Source: Infirmifilum sp. NZ (lineage in GTDB: Archaea > Thermoproteota > Thermoprotei > Thermofilales > Thermofilaceae). From it: a stretch of 64,000 nt of DNA. The stretch spans positions 1,754,526 to 1,818,525 of the forward strand of contig NZ_CP094288.1 of the NCBI RefSeq assembly GCF_022693705.1. The letters run 5' to 3'. Below, piece after piece: positions 26,454 through 36,596 of the stretch. Under the pieces are notes generated by a model. It ran no database searches. It saw only the letters and a program-made list of their open reading frames with translations, and was not told where the DNA came from. The translations under genes and the position numbers were made by a program. Each line of letters opens with the position of its first letter. The stretch's first letter is position 1.

Positions 26454-27683
26454 ATGTCCACACGTCTCACAGGGCTGTGCTTGAAGTGCCGGGGCGCGAA
26501 GCTACTCTGCGGGCTCCCGCGCTGCCCCTTCCTCTCCATCTGGTCAAAAATGGGGGAGGTGAAGCCCCCGTCCTCCGCGGAGCTACAGGCCCCATCACCC
26601 CCCTCAGTCTTCGTCGGCCGCGTGGGTTACCCTAACGTTAGGGTGGCCCCCGCTGTCGTCACCGCCGACGGGGATGTCTCAGTGTACGACCTCCCAGAGA
26701 GGTGGCTAAGCTACGGGGTCGAGGACGTCCTGAAGTTCAGGCTGAGCCTGGTTCTCGGTAGCCTGCGCGTTGACGCCCGCCGTCCCGACGCCCTCGGGGA
26801 AGTCGCCCTGCTCTCGAGCTCCTCGAGGCCCGTCGACGTGGAGCTGAGGTTCCGCAAGCCTCCAAGGGGGGTTCAGCTCGACCCCCACGCCCCGCCCTTC
26901 GGCCCCTCCGGGGTCGCCGAGAAGGTCAGGCTGGTGGACAACCCCAGCATCCCTAGGCCCCTCGAGAGGATACTGGGCGGCGACAGGGTGAGGGCCGACG
27001 AGGCCGTGTGGAGGCTCTACGAAAGCGGGATACCGGTGTCGATGATACAGAGGGTGTTCTCGGTCGGCCTGCTGGGCAGGAGCGCCGGCAGGAGGCTTGT
27101 GCCGACGAGGTGGTCGATAACCGCTGTCGACGACATCATCTCGAAGAGGATCCTCGAGGAAGTGAAGCGCAACCCCTCCATCGACAGCTACCTCTTCTTC
27201 CAGCGCAGGTACTCGGACAACAACTTCGTGGCGATCCTAGCTCCAGGCGCGTGGAGCTTCGAGTGGATTGAGGCGTGGTTCCCGCACACGACCTGGAACC
27301 CCGGAGCGACCGTGGAGGTGGAGGGCGACTGGGAGGGCTTCAAGGGGAGAAGCGAGTACGCGACGCTGGGCGGTTGCTACTACGCGTCAAGGCTCGCTGT
27401 CGCAGAGTACCTCAGGAGGCTGGGTAGGCAGGCGACCGTGCTCCTCATCAGGGAGATATACGAGGGTTTCTTCCTCCCGATAGGCGTCTGGTTCGTGCGC
27501 GAGAACGTCAGGGCGCTCTTCGCCTCGAAGCCCGAGAGGTACGACGACTTCAAGGACGTGCTCGCGAGGCTCGGCTCGTCGACTAGGCTACCGCTGAGCG
27601 TCTGGCTCTCCAAGTCCAAGATCCTCAGGGACTTCACCAAGCAGACTAGGCTCGAGGTGGGATCCCTTGGAGGTGAGGTATGA
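26454..27683 (+). CDS. nreA: NreA-type archaeal DNA repair protein
   Basis: 409 residues of the archaeal Nre family, linked experimentally in other archaea to survival after mitomycin C damage and to PCNA. It starts with a zinc-finger-like cluster CLKCRGAKLLCGLPRCPF and continues with PSVFVGRVGYPNVRVAP, both typical of the family. RRLVPTRWSITAVDDIIS and GCYYASRLAVAEYL are conserved-looking core segments. I see no clear PCNA-interacting box at the C-terminus (ends EVGSLGGEV), although many family members carry one. ATG start with AGGT just ahead. It overlaps the radical SAM gene downstream by 17 nt. Confidence 0.88.
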   Translation: MSTRLTGLCLKCRGAKLLCGLPRCPFLSIWSKMGEVKPPSSAELQAPSPPSVFVGRVGYPNVRVAPAVVTADGDVSVYDLPERWLSYGVEDVLKFRLSLVLGSLRVDARRPDALGEVALLSSSSRPVDVELRFRKPPRGVQLDPHAPPFGPSGVAEKVRLVDNPSIPRPLERILGGDRVRADEAVWRLYESGIPVSMIQRVFSVGLLGRSAGRRLVPTRWSITAVDDIISKRILEEVKRNPSIDSYLFFQRRYSDNNFVAILAPGAWSFEWIEAWFPHTTWNPGATVEVEGDWEGFKGRSEYATLGGCYYASRLAVAEYLRRLGRQATVLLIREIYEGFFLPIGVWFVRENVRALFASKPERYDDFKDVLARLGSSTRLPLSVWLSKSKILRDFTKQTRLEVGSLGGEV

Positions 27684-28540: not shown

Positions 28541-29572
28541 GTGCCTGGCGACGAGATCCTCAGGATATTCAGCCTACTCAACGGCCTGCGCGCAGGGCTC
28601 ACCCCCACATTCCACCTCAACGGCCGCACCGTCACTGCCGAGGAGCTGCGAGTGCTGGAGGCGGTTGAGAGGGCTGGCTCCATAAAGAGGGCCGCGGAGC
28701 TACTGGGCGTCGACTACAGGACGGTTTGGAACACGATCGCCAGGCTCGAGGAGGCTACCGGTGCGAAAGTTGTCGAAAGGGGTGCTGGGGGGCCAGGCGG
28801 CGGTGGCGCGCACCTGACTCCGGTAGGCGAGGCAATTCTCGCGGAGGCCAGGCTAGTGCGCGCGAAGCTCACCGGCATGCTAAGGGGCTTCGACCTCGCG
28901 AGGCCTGATGTGGTCATAGCGGGGAGCGACTGCGCTGTAATGGAGCGGCTCATCTTGGAGCTCGCCGAGAAGGGGGTCTATGGGCTCTACCTGAAGGTGG
29001 GCTCCACGCTGGGCGTGGAGGCGCTCAAAATGGGTTTGAGCCACGTCGCGGGGGTCCACATCCTCAACCCGGCTACCGGGAGGTACAACGAGCACCTGCT
29101 CGACGACCCCCAGCTTAGGGGCAGGGTGGTTTTAGTGAAGGGGTGGAAGAGGGTGATGGGGCTCGCGTTCAACCCCAGGGTGGAGAGTCCCCCCGATAGC
29201 CTCGCCGGTGTTGTAGAGCGGGGCTTGAGGATCGCTAACAGGATCAAGGGCAGCGGGACCAGGATCCTCCTCGAGCACCTTCTAGAGCAGGCGGCCCGCG
29301 AGCTGGGGGTTCCCGTCTCGACCCTCAGGAGGAGGCTCAAGGGCTACGGAGTTGAGTACACCACACACCGGGAGGCGGCGAACGCTGTGGCGACAGGCAA
29401 GGCCGACGTCACCCTGACTGTGGACTGGGTCGCGAGAGAGCACGGCCTGGTCTTCAAGCCGCTGCTAAGCGAAGACTATGACCTGCTGGTGGTCAAGGAC
29501 GTTCTCCCCAAGCTCCCACTAGCCGAGACATCTGTCTTCAAGGGCAGAGAGAGTCTAACTGTAATCGAGTAG
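28541..29572 (+). CDS. ModE-like winged-helix regulator with periplasmic-binding-protein-like sensor
   Basis: 343 residues. Residues 30-95 are a LysR/ModE-type winged helix (LRVLEAVERAGSIKRAAELLGVDYRTVWNTI, then LTPVGEAILAEA). The rest is a substrate-binding-protein-like sensor (VIAGSDCAVMERLIL...GSTLGVEALKMG...VHILNPATGRYN...GVEYTTHREAANAVATGKADVTLTVDWVA), the PBP-like domain found in molybdate/tungstate regulators. It is therefore a candidate oxyanion-responsive repressor. TupABC lies 5.6 kb away and its promoter carries a ModE-box-like palindrome. The promoter CATTAAAAGG (about 28513-28521) precedes the GTG start by 20-27 nt. The link to tupA is inference. Confidence 0.85.
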   Translation: MPGDEILRIFSLLNGLRAGLTPTFHLNGRTVTAEELRVLEAVERAGSIKRAAELLGVDYRTVWNTIARLEEATGAKVVERGAGGPGGGGAHLTPVGEAILAEARLVRAKLTGMLRGFDLARPDVVIAGSDCAVMERLILELAEKGVYGLYLKVGSTLGVEALKMGLSHVAGVHILNPATGRYNEHLLDDPQLRGRVVLVKGWKRVMGLAFNPRVESPPDSLAGVVERGLRIANRIKGSGTRILLEHLLEQAARELGVPVSTLRRRLKGYGVEYTTHREAANAVATGKADVTLTVDWVAREHGLVFKPLLSEDYDLLVVKDVLPKLPLAETSVFKGRESLTVIE

Positions 29573-34181: not shown

Positions 34182-34211
34182 CATATATACGCTATGATAA
34201 AAATCATAGCG
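34182..34211. promoter_or_regulatory. tupA promoter with overlapping ModE-box-like palindrome
   Basis: The TATA box CATATATAC spans 34182-34190. Directly after it, CGCTATGAT (34190-34198) and ATCATAGCG (34203-34211) form a perfect 9-bp inverted repeat around AAAA. This sits over the expected transcription start and ends 8 nt before the ATG. The CGnTAT...ATAnCG outline is that of bacterial ModE operators. Repressor binding here would block initiation. Confidence 0.65.
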
Positions 34212-34219
34212 GTAAGATT

Positions 34220-35170
34220 ATGAAGCATGCTGGAGCAAAGAGGTTCAATCTAGTCGCCTTCTTGCTGGTGGCTCTCGCTTTAGTCGGGGCCGCGTACTTC
34301 TACTTCACCAACCAGCCTCAGGCAAAGCAGAAGACAGTGCTCCGGATCGCAACCACCACGAGCGTCGACGCGACAGGTCTCCTCGACGTCCTGAAGAAGG
34401 GGTTCGAGTCCACTTACCCTGACATCAACGTCACCTGGGTCGCAGTCGGCACCGGCCAAGCGCTGCAGATAGCGATGAGGGGGGACGCCGACATGGTCAT
34501 AACGCACGACAGACCGTCCGAGGAGCAGTTCATAAAGCAGGGTTACGGCGTCCACGGTATCTCCTTCGCCTACAACGACTTCGTGATCCTAGGCCCCCCT
34601 GACGACCCAGCCGGGATCAAGGACGCCAAGAGCGCCGCGGAGGCCTTCAGGCTGATAGCGCTGGCAGGGGAGCAGGGCAGGGCAGTTTTCGTGTCGAGGG
34701 GTGACAAGTCCGGGACGAACCTCAGGGAGCTGAGGCTCTGGGAACAGGCGGGAGTGAACGCCACCGGCCGCCCCTGGTACAAGGAGACCGGGCAGGGCAT
34801 GGCGCAGACGCTCATGGTCACCGACCAGCTGAGGAACGCCTACACGCTCAGCGACAGGAGCACCTACTTGGCATTCAAGGACAAGCTCTCACTCGCGGTG
34901 CTCTTCCAAGGAGACCCCGCTCTCCTAAACATATACAGGGCAACCCTCGTCAACAGCACCCGCTTCCCGTGGGTTCACTACGACGCGGCTTACAAGTTCG
35001 TGAAGTTCCTTATCTCCCCCAGAGGGCAAGCCTTAATAGGTAGCTACACTAAGGGCGGCGCTAAGCTGTTTAACACATGCTTCGGCAACGTCTCCAAGCT
35101 CGGCATCGTTGACCCATACGAGGAAGAGCAGATCGCCTGGTGGAGGGAGCAGTTGCAAAAGGACCCGTGA
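34220..35170 (+). CDS. tupA: Tungstate ABC transporter substrate-binding protein
   Basis: 316 residues with an N-terminal signal/anchor (LVAFLLVALALVGAAYFYF), then a type II oxyanion-binding protein of the TupA family: RIATTTSVDATGLLDVL, AVGTGQALQIAMRGDADMVITHDRPSEEQF and YNDFVILGPPDDPAGI are family hallmarks, and SRGDKSGT forms the oxyanion-binding loop. It delivers tungstate, needed for the tungsten oxidoreductases of hyperthermophiles. It is the first gene of tupABC. Its promoter overlaps a palindromic operator candidate. Confidence 0.93.
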   Translation: MKHAGAKRFNLVAFLLVALALVGAAYFYFTNQPQAKQKTVLRIATTTSVDATGLLDVLKKGFESTYPDINVTWVAVGTGQALQIAMRGDADMVITHDRPSEEQFIKQGYGVHGISFAYNDFVILGPPDDPAGIKDAKSAAEAFRLIALAGEQGRAVFVSRGDKSGTNLRELRLWEQAGVNATGRPWYKETGQGMAQTLMVTDQLRNAYTLSDRSTYLAFKDKLSLAVLFQGDPALLNIYRATLVNSTRFPWVHYDAAYKFVKFLISPRGQALIGSYTKGGAKLFNTCFGNVSKLGIVDPYEEEQIAWWREQLQKDP

Positions 35171-35245
35171 ACCCTCTCACGGAGCCTACCCCCCCCAAAG
35201 CTTTTTTCCGTGCACCCCCCTACGATACCAGGAGGGCGGTTCGTA

Positions 35246-35911
35246 GTGATCGACGCGACGCTGAGCGAGGTAGTCTCGATAACCCTTCTATCTTTACGTG
35301 TCTCGGCGACGGCCGTAGCCCTATCCTCAGCCTTCGGGCTCCCTCTGGGAGCATTCATCGCCAGTAGGGAGTTTAGGGGCAAGCACGTCGCAGTCACCGT
35401 GATAAACACGCTGATGGGCACGCCCCCCGTTCTCCTGGGCCTCCTCCTCTACCTCCTCCTCTCCCGCCAAGGCCCCCTCGGCTGGACAGGCCTCCTCTTC
35501 ACCCCCGAGGCCATGATCGTCGCCCAGTTCCTCCTGACCCTCCCGATAACCACAGGCCTCACCATCACAGCGGTCGAGTCGTTGCCCAGGGACCTTAGGG
35601 AGCTCGTGCGCTCGCTGAGGGCCAGCGCCCTGTACGAGGCGCTACTCCTCCTGAACGAGTCCCGCGTCAACCTCCTGGGCGCGGTCCTCGCTGCGCTGGG
35701 CCGGGCGATATCGGAGGTGGGAGCTGTTATCATCGTCGGGGGAAACATAAGGTACCAGACACGGGTCCTCACAACGGCCATCGTCTACTACACGAACGCC
35801 GGCGAGTTCGACACCGCGATCGCTCTCGGCGCGGTCCTCGCCCTCGTCTACCTCGCCGTCAACACCGCCGTGATCATCCTGAAGATCAGGGTGGGGAAGA
35901 GTGCCGCTTGA
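35246..35911 (+). CDS. tupB: Tungstate ABC transporter permease
   Basis: 221 residues, five to six membrane helices. The ATPase-docking loop is recognisable at LPRDLRELVRSLRASALYEAL, and EVGAVIIVGGNIRYQTRVLTTAI is a strong TupB-family signature. The GTG at 35246 is chosen because AGGAGGG lies 9 nt upstream. An in-frame upstream start at 35210 would place that ribosome site inside the gene. It lies 75 nt after tupA and overlaps tupC by 11 nt. Confidence 0.92.
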   Translation: MIDATLSEVVSITLLSLRVSATAVALSSAFGLPLGAFIASREFRGKHVAVTVINTLMGTPPVLLGLLLYLLLSRQGPLGWTGLLFTPEAMIVAQFLLTLPITTGLTITAVESLPRDLRELVRSLRASALYEALLLLNESRVNLLGAVLAALGRAISEVGAVIIVGGNIRYQTRVLTTAIVYYTNAGEFDTAIALGAVLALVYLAVNTAVIILKIRVGKSAA

Positions 35912-36596
35912 AGCACAAGAGGTGTCGAAGAGCTACGATGGAAGACCCGTGCTCAAGAGCGTGAGCCTGATCGCCGAGAGGGGGCAGGTGACGTGCCTCA
36001 TAGGCCCCAACGGCTCTGGAAAGACCACCCTCCTCCGCATACTCGCCCTCCTCGAGAAGCCGGACTCCGGGAGGATCCTCCTCGACGGCGAAGACCTCTC
36101 GCTCAAAGTCAGGGAGCGCGCCGCCAGGATAGCCTACATGCCCCAGAGGCCAGTCGCCCTAACCGCAAGCGTCTACGGAAACGTATACCTACCCCTGAGG
36201 GCAAGCGGCGTCCCAGGCCCCGAGGCCTCGAAGAGGGCGAAGAAGTACCTAGACCTCCTAGGCCTCACTGAGCTCGAGGACAAGCCCGCCCAGAGGCTCT
36301 CCGGGGGGCAGCGGCAGCTCCTCGCCATAGCGAGGGCGCTGGCGCTTGAGCCAGACCTGCTCCTGCTCGACGAGCCGACGAGCCACCTAGACCCCTCAAA
36401 CGCCTCCAAGGTGAGGGCGCTGATAAGGGAGTACGTTAAATCGCGGAGCATCGTAGCGGTCATCGTCTCCCACTCCCCCCAGGAGGTCGCGGAGCTCTCC
36501 GACAAGACCGTGCTGCTCTTCGATGGGGCCGTGAAAGGAGTCTACACGCGACAAGCCGTGAGCGAGGAGCTACTAAAACTCTTTCACCTTTACTGA
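35901..36596 (+). CDS. tupC: Tungstate ABC transporter ATPase
   Basis: 231 residues, one ABC domain: Walker A GPNGSGKTT, Q-loop YMPQRPVAL, signature RLSGGQRQL, Walker B LLLLDEPTSHLD and switch His in IVSHSPQE. The length is that of a bare nucleotide-binding domain with no C-terminal regulatory (TOBE) extension, as usual for TupC. The GTG start overlaps tupB. It completes the importer. Confidence 0.93.
   Translation: MPLEAQEVSKSYDGRPVLKSVSLIAERGQVTCLIGPNGSGKTTLLRILALLEKPDSGRILLDGEDLSLKVRERAARIAYMPQRPVALTASVYGNVYLPLRASGVPGPEASKRAKKYLDLLGLTELEDKPAQRLSGGQRQLLAIARALALEPDLLLLDEPTSHLDPSNASKVRALIREYVKSRSIVAVIVSHSPQEVAELSDKTVLLFDGAVKGVYTRQAVSEELLKLFHLY

Follow-up and report, generated by a model that had tools for sequence, protein, structure and literature searches.

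A perfect palindrome with the half-sites of a bacterial ModE box was located on the promoter of the tungstate uptake operon tupABC of Infirmifilum sp. NZ, and the same half-sites recur at tupA in many genera of the phylum. The palindrome is probably the tupABC operator, bound by a ModE-like regulator encoded in the same region whose PBP-like domain would sense tungstate and whose loaded dimer would block initiation. This reading, drawn from sequence comparison, largely supports the repressor-operator pair put forward in an initial annotation of the window (the whole stretch of 64,000 nucleotides that was analysed), in which the following features were placed.

28541-29572, + strand: regulator of 343 aa with a ModE-like winged helix and a PBP-like sensor (HTH_1 and PF12727), the proposed reader of the operator
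34183-34189, + strand: TATA element ATATATA of the tupA promoter, from sequence, in an arrangement that recurs in G005 and other genomes
34190-34211, no strand: candidate N10 ModE-type operator of the tup operon, CGCTATGATAAAAATCATAGCG, from sequence and conservation at tupA promoters
34220-35170, + strand: tupA, tungstate-binding protein of 316 aa (NF041772 TupA, 168.7 bits, curated cut-off 400)
35210-35911, + strand: tupB, permease (NF041773 TupB, 148.9 bits, below the cut-off; NF038017, 227.5 bits, above the cut-off)
35901-36596, + strand: tupC, ATP-binding subunit (PF00005, E 7e-35)

The palindrome consists of perfect 9-bp arms around a 4-bp loop (CGCTATGAT-AAAA-ATCATAGCG), and its sequence and position on the tupA promoter were verified in the window. 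The span first given to it, 34182-34211, does contain the palindrome, while the palindrome proper begins at 34190 and the rest of that span includes the TATA element. As originally described, it lies directly downstream of the TATA box, which it abuts with a gap of 0 nt, and it ends 8 nt upstream of the tupA ATG (34220). Transcription of tupA is predicted to start about 25 nt downstream of the TATA element, at around 34210, which would put the start within the palindrome or at its edge. The palindrome is single copy in the 1.83-Mb genome even when 3 mismatches are allowed. Symmetry alone was dropped as evidence, since shuffled windows were just as rich in perfect palindromes of this kind (arms of 9 bp or more, loops of up to 8; 3 in the 64-kb window against 0-5 in shuffles); such a palindrome fell within the 100 bp upstream of tupA in only 76 of 20,000 shuffles. 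The palindrome is therefore unremarkable by its symmetry and remarkable by its conservation, and it is the conservation that provides the strong evidence.

The E. coli ModE box ATCGNTATATA-N6-TATATANCGAT, equivalent to CGNTAT-N12-ATANCG (PMC545781; PMC2700814), has the half-sites CGnTAT and ATAnCG of this palindrome, so that the description of the site as ModE-box-like was apt apart from a spacing of 10 rather than 12. The 12-base spacing, not seen at tupA of this genome, was present at 23 other tupA loci and in a second class of boxes in the same genome that is described below. Within the genus the exact box was found at the tupA promoter of the genome under study (G000), of the near-identical G212 and of G005, where it (CGCTATGAAAATATTCATAACG) occupies the equivalent place behind the same TATATA. 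Partial boxes keeping the left half were present in G002 (CGCTATCAAAATTCTGAGAAACG) and G001 (CGCTATTCACTTACGAAAAACG), and G003 and G004 retain the right half-site only, although tupABC and the ModE-PBP gene adjoin there, which counts against the operator model. Conservation at orthologous tupA promoters, on which the initial annotation had staked its proposal, is therefore real but not universal. The 22-bp motif CGnTATSA-N6-TSATAnCG was scanned across 61 genomes of the class and occurred with 0 mismatches at exactly two places, the tupA promoters of G000 and G005. With one mismatch the class-wide match frequency was not above that of the reversed control, and these matches were set aside as background, leaving only the exact form as informative. 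The tupA start region of G212 (contig C31, L104) carries an approximately 80-bp tandem duplication spanning most of the operator and the tupA start, which is either genuine or an assembly error.

TupA was detected in 111 of the 398 genomes of the phylum and 101 tupA loci were examined, with all counts being of genomes without correction for shared descent, though many genera were covered. Exact CGnTAT-N10/11/12-ATAnCG matches occurred 43 times upstream of tupA, divided among spacings of N10 (14 occurrences in 10 genera), N11 (6 in 3 genera) and N12 (23 in 14 genera). At these 101 loci there were zero exact matches upstream of tupA for spacings 6-9 and 13-16, the everted and reversed controls gave 2 and 0 matches respectively, and no exact half-site pair at N10-12 was found in the remaining 922 kb. 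The sites in most genomes were on or directly behind TATA-like sequences. The pattern CGnTAT-N10/11/12-ATAnCG could serve for annotating regulons of tungsten and molybdenum throughout the phylum.

The TupA protein scored below the NCBIfam equivalog cut-off (NF041772), yet its closest structures were solved tungstate-binding proteins, with 3lr1 as the best PDB match (E 2.6e-61) and TupA 5my5 also matched; selectivity for tungsten over molybdenum is presumed. The ligand motifs TTTS, His, Arg and SGT were present, and T45-T47, S48, H96, R160 and S164-T166 were invariant in an 8-member alignment. The protein is 98% identical to that of the MAG Thermofilum sp. NZ13, a close relative of this organism, and the five AOR-family genes of the genome point to a need for tungsten.

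The nearby ModE-like regulator mentioned in the initial annotation was confirmed as a ModE-like winged-helix protein 5.6 kb upstream of tupA, with domains HTH_1 (PF00126, E 2.1e-15) and PF12727 PBP_like (E 3.2e-40) and no TOBE domain. The best PDB matches of its N-terminal half were the ModE chains 2ijl, 1b9m and 1o7l. It does not qualify as a ModE in the strict sense, since it lacks the TOBE sensor and its score against TIGR00637, the ModE winged helix (67.4 bits, E 8.6e-19), does not reach the curated cut-off of 98.5, and it would work like ModE only as regards the DNA site. In G005 the gene is 11 kb away from tupA. The non-adjacency in the genome under study counts against the pairing, as does a search of the regulator gene's own start, where no box was found. 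Homologues directly adjoin tupA in many genomes. A ModE-type gene adjoined the tup genes in 59 of the 101 loci, in the order tupA-tupB-tupC-modE on one strand in G001-G004 and divergent from tupA in many other genomes. Regulator identity was 68% between G000 and G005, which fits the box common to both, and only 35-36% between G000 and G001-G004, which fits the degraded boxes of the latter.

The regulators linked to tupA were of two kinds, either approximately 340 aa with a PBP-like sensor or approximately 185 aa with a TOBE domain, so the same operon has a replaced sensor across the phylum. Those of the TOBE type are plain ModE-like proteins. Among the loci with an exact box, N12 was the spacing in 12 of 12 with a TOBE-type regulator, and those with a PBP-type regulator were distributed over N10 (8), N11 (5) and N12 (7). 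A tupA neighbour comprising an HTH and a single TOBE domain, together with an N12 box, was seen at L112, L174, L190, L141, L165 and others.

Tungsten-enzyme and cofactor genes had also been suggested as places to look for the palindrome, and the half-sites were indeed found there with a spacing of N12, not N10. Exact N12 boxes, mostly CGATATTT-N8-AAATATCG, were intergenic at three places of the genome, listed here with the stand-alone ModE gene of the first operon.

G000:C1:713882: N12 box CGATATTTTTATCCGGAAATATCG in the promoter of an AOR-moaD-ModE operon (713882-716453, L243:883-3454)
G000:C1:716103-716453: stand-alone ModE domain of 116 aa in the AOR-moaD-ModE operon
G000:C1:1074687 (L268:2188): N12 box between moaA and a binding-protein gene
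G000:C1:1694215 (L267:4216-8160): N12 box before a molybdopterin oxidoreductase/4Fe-4S/NrfD operon

The box of the AOR operon was also present in G212, G002, G003 and G004, and G005 has it with one mismatch; conservation of the operon with its box in the genus suggests that it is a likely autoregulated tungsten-enzyme operon. The box of the oxidoreductase operon recurred in G212, a further N12 box was located at a 1170-aa molybdopterin oxidoreductase in G003 (L273:3892) and G004 (L272:4010), and one at moaA in G002 (L252:4365). The genome-wide scans were pattern-based and left out CGGTAT...ATACCG pairs. In the genus scan 13 of the 14 N12 matches were outside long reading frames, compared with only 3 of the 28 matches at N9, N11 and N13. 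Single exact CGnTAT-N9/11/13-ATAnCG matches fell almost without exception within reading frames and were put down to chance. The only intergenic N10 matches in the genus were those at tupA, where the G005 box was scored as coding only because its probable tupA start is preceded by an open frame. No exact box, only matches with one mismatch, was found at the remaining four AOR genes of this genome. Outside the genus, 20 genomes were examined around their stand-alone ModE genes, and the AOR-moaD-ModE order with an N12 box was absent there. Two of these genomes, G024 (L289:3643-3666) and G022 (L294:2668-2691), which belong to another family of the order, have an exact N12 box close to a stand-alone ModE gene, at a distance of no more than about 1.5 kb.

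Since N10 is intergenic only at tupA and N12 is found at enzyme and cofactor genes, each spacing marks a gene set of its own, and the N12 sites constitute a putative small ModE-type regulon in Thermofilum-like archaea. The simplest reading would be that each spacing has its own reader, with the stand-alone ModE domain, whose operon itself carries such a box, binding N12 and the PBP-type regulator binding N10. A wider scheme, whose chances we put at about even, is a two-tier ModE system split by operator spacing. An autoregulated stand-alone ModE would read the N12 boxes at tungsten and molybdenum enzymes and moaA, its PBP-sensor relative would read N10 at tupABC, and the swap from TOBE to a TupA-like sensor would have gone with the shift in spacing, with both forms interchanging at tupA across the phylum.

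The stand-alone ModE is a second possible reader of the tupA site, which counts against assigning that site to the PBP-type protein. It has a DNA-binding domain of the same kind, the box of its own operon has the same half-sites, and almost all genomes of the set encode it, including those in which no PBP-type regulator was detected. On that account the 116-aa protein would read the tupA operator and the PBP-type protein would do something else, which we regard as unlikely, as N12 and the CGATATTT-N8-AAATATCG form characterise the boxes of its operon and of the cofactor and enzyme genes while the tupA box is N10 with other inner bases, and the regulators linked to tupA are of the PBP or TOBE type, not the stand-alone ModE.

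For the PBP-type regulator as reader, the nature of the ligand was approached through its sensor domain. AlphaFold structure models were confident (pLDDT 89 for the full-length regulator and 92 for the PBP domain alone). The best Foldseek matches of the whole regulator were full-length LysR-type proteins, and those of the sensor were LysR effector domains and proteins that bind phosphate or tungstate, TupA 5my5 and 3lr1 among them. The sensor match is thus to periplasmic-binding folds in general, which counts against a specific assignment. In a profile alignment His173, Arg234 and Ser238-Gly239-Thr240 of the regulator were aligned with His96, Arg160 and Ser164-Gly165-Thr166 of TupA; the profile match was moderate at 79% probability, which counts against it, and the aligned residues were invariant or nearly so in 26 regulators and 8 TupA proteins. 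By motif they match the tungstate site of D. alaskensis TupA (His59, Arg118 and Thr124), where the importance of Arg118 was established by mutation (PMC5517513). The aligned His, Arg and SGT residues make a tetrahedral oxyanion the likely ligand, with tungstate as the natural guess. PF12727 also occurs fused to MoeA, so the sensor may bind molybdate or a cofactor intermediate, which counts against tungstate. At G000:C1:1493397-1494014 in the same genome the PBP-like domain is 40% identical to the C-terminal part of a 660-aa frame, probably a MoeA-type molybdopterin protein, and the common domain suggests an oxyanion-handling role for both proteins.

It is quite unlikely, in our estimate, that the regulator binds as an activator or answers molybdate, phosphate or a pterin-metal complex instead of tungstate. 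In favour, proteins with a LysR-like architecture are often activators, MoeA-type proteins also carry PF12727 at their C-terminus and the sensor has a likeness to phosphate-binding proteins as well. Against, the site is in most genomes on the TATA box or just behind it, a position from which a regulator in archaea should prevent initiation, and the linked genes are tungstate transporters.

The preferred model, by analogy, is repression by the tungstate-loaded protein. A dimer of the 28541-29572 regulator would bind 34190-34211 via its winged helices and its PBP-like domain would probably sense cytoplasmic tungstate. When tungstate is plentiful the loaded dimer would be located between the TATA box and the transcription start, so that initiation would be blocked and tungstate uptake shut off. 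The ligand-dependent step was modelled on bacterial ModE, which represses in its metal-loaded form. A place between the TATA box and the transcription start is a usual one for repression in archaea. The protein that binds the operator, its ligand, and repression rather than activation are what we infer from these comparisons.

A perfect inverted repeat 8 nt upstream of a start codon could also act as RNA, as a leader hairpin controlling translation or termination, but this is very improbable since the TATA element at 34183-34189 should put the start near 34210 and would leave most of the repeat untranscribed, and since the bases CGnTAT and the spacing are conserved rather than pairing as such, with many of the homologous boxes being imperfect palindromes and several overlapping the TATA box. 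A functionless chance palindrome, of a size that arises 0-5 times per shuffled window, is contradicted by conservation of the site at the tupA of many genera, in its sequence as well as its spacing and position, and has a next to negligible probability.

The repressor-operator pair proposed here resembles E. coli ModE in a ModE-like winged helix, in the half-sites CGnTAT/ATAnCG and in putative targets that comprise oxyanion uptake, moaA and molybdenum or tungsten enzymes, and differs in having a PBP-like sensor rather than TOBE/Mop, a tupA spacing of 10 rather than 12, a tungstate transporter as target and an archaeal host. A ModE-type element before metal-oxyanion transport genes has precedents in archaea, where ModE controls modABC in Methanosarcinales (PMC9765008) and where the element is named in the title of Studholme and Pau 2003 (cited in PMC545781), so that the archaeal ModE element as such is already reported and not new. 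As far as that title allows comparison, the present case differs by belonging to Thermoproteota, by its tupABC target, by its PBP-sensor regulator and by its shorter spacer. TaoR, a characterised regulator of tungsten aldehyde oxidoreductase as cited in PMC11980592, likewise fuses a DNA-binding domain to a PBP-like domain and is tungsten-related, but is bacterial and described there with an HTH_17 rather than a ModE-type DNA-binding domain. LysR-type regulators also combine an HTH_1 winged helix with a periplasmic-binding-fold effector domain, both present in our regulator, whose DNA-binding half is closest to ModE and whose effector is PF12727, not PF03466. The tungstate-responsive regulator TunR of sulfate reducers controls tup and mod genes through a tyrosine-recombinase DNA-binding domain with TOBE sensors. 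It resembles the pair described here in the tungstate-responsive control of tup that we propose, and represents the reverse swap.

Within the searchable literature, what appears to be new is the assignment of a PBP-sensor regulator to tupABC in Thermoproteota, its TupA-like PBP sensor, the shortened spacing and the presence of two box classes in one genome. No paper on the control of tungstate uptake in tungsten-dependent hyperthermophilic archaea was found in the literature searched, and the subject seems little studied. The site is now defined, a regulator is named and a second group of sites is available as a control, so that the question is open to direct tests in vitro. One DNA-binding module retained together with its half-sites, as metal sensor and spacing are exchanged, would be a clean case of sensor swapping.

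Two further features were recorded. Upstream of tupA in three lineages (L200, L201 and L202) the site CGTTATCnnATAACGGATAACG contains overlapping inverted pairs at N3 and N10 formed via a 7-bp direct repeat, a layout that perhaps gives space for more than one dimer arrangement. Positions 26454-27683 of the window encode an archaeal Nre family protein (PF04894/PF04895).
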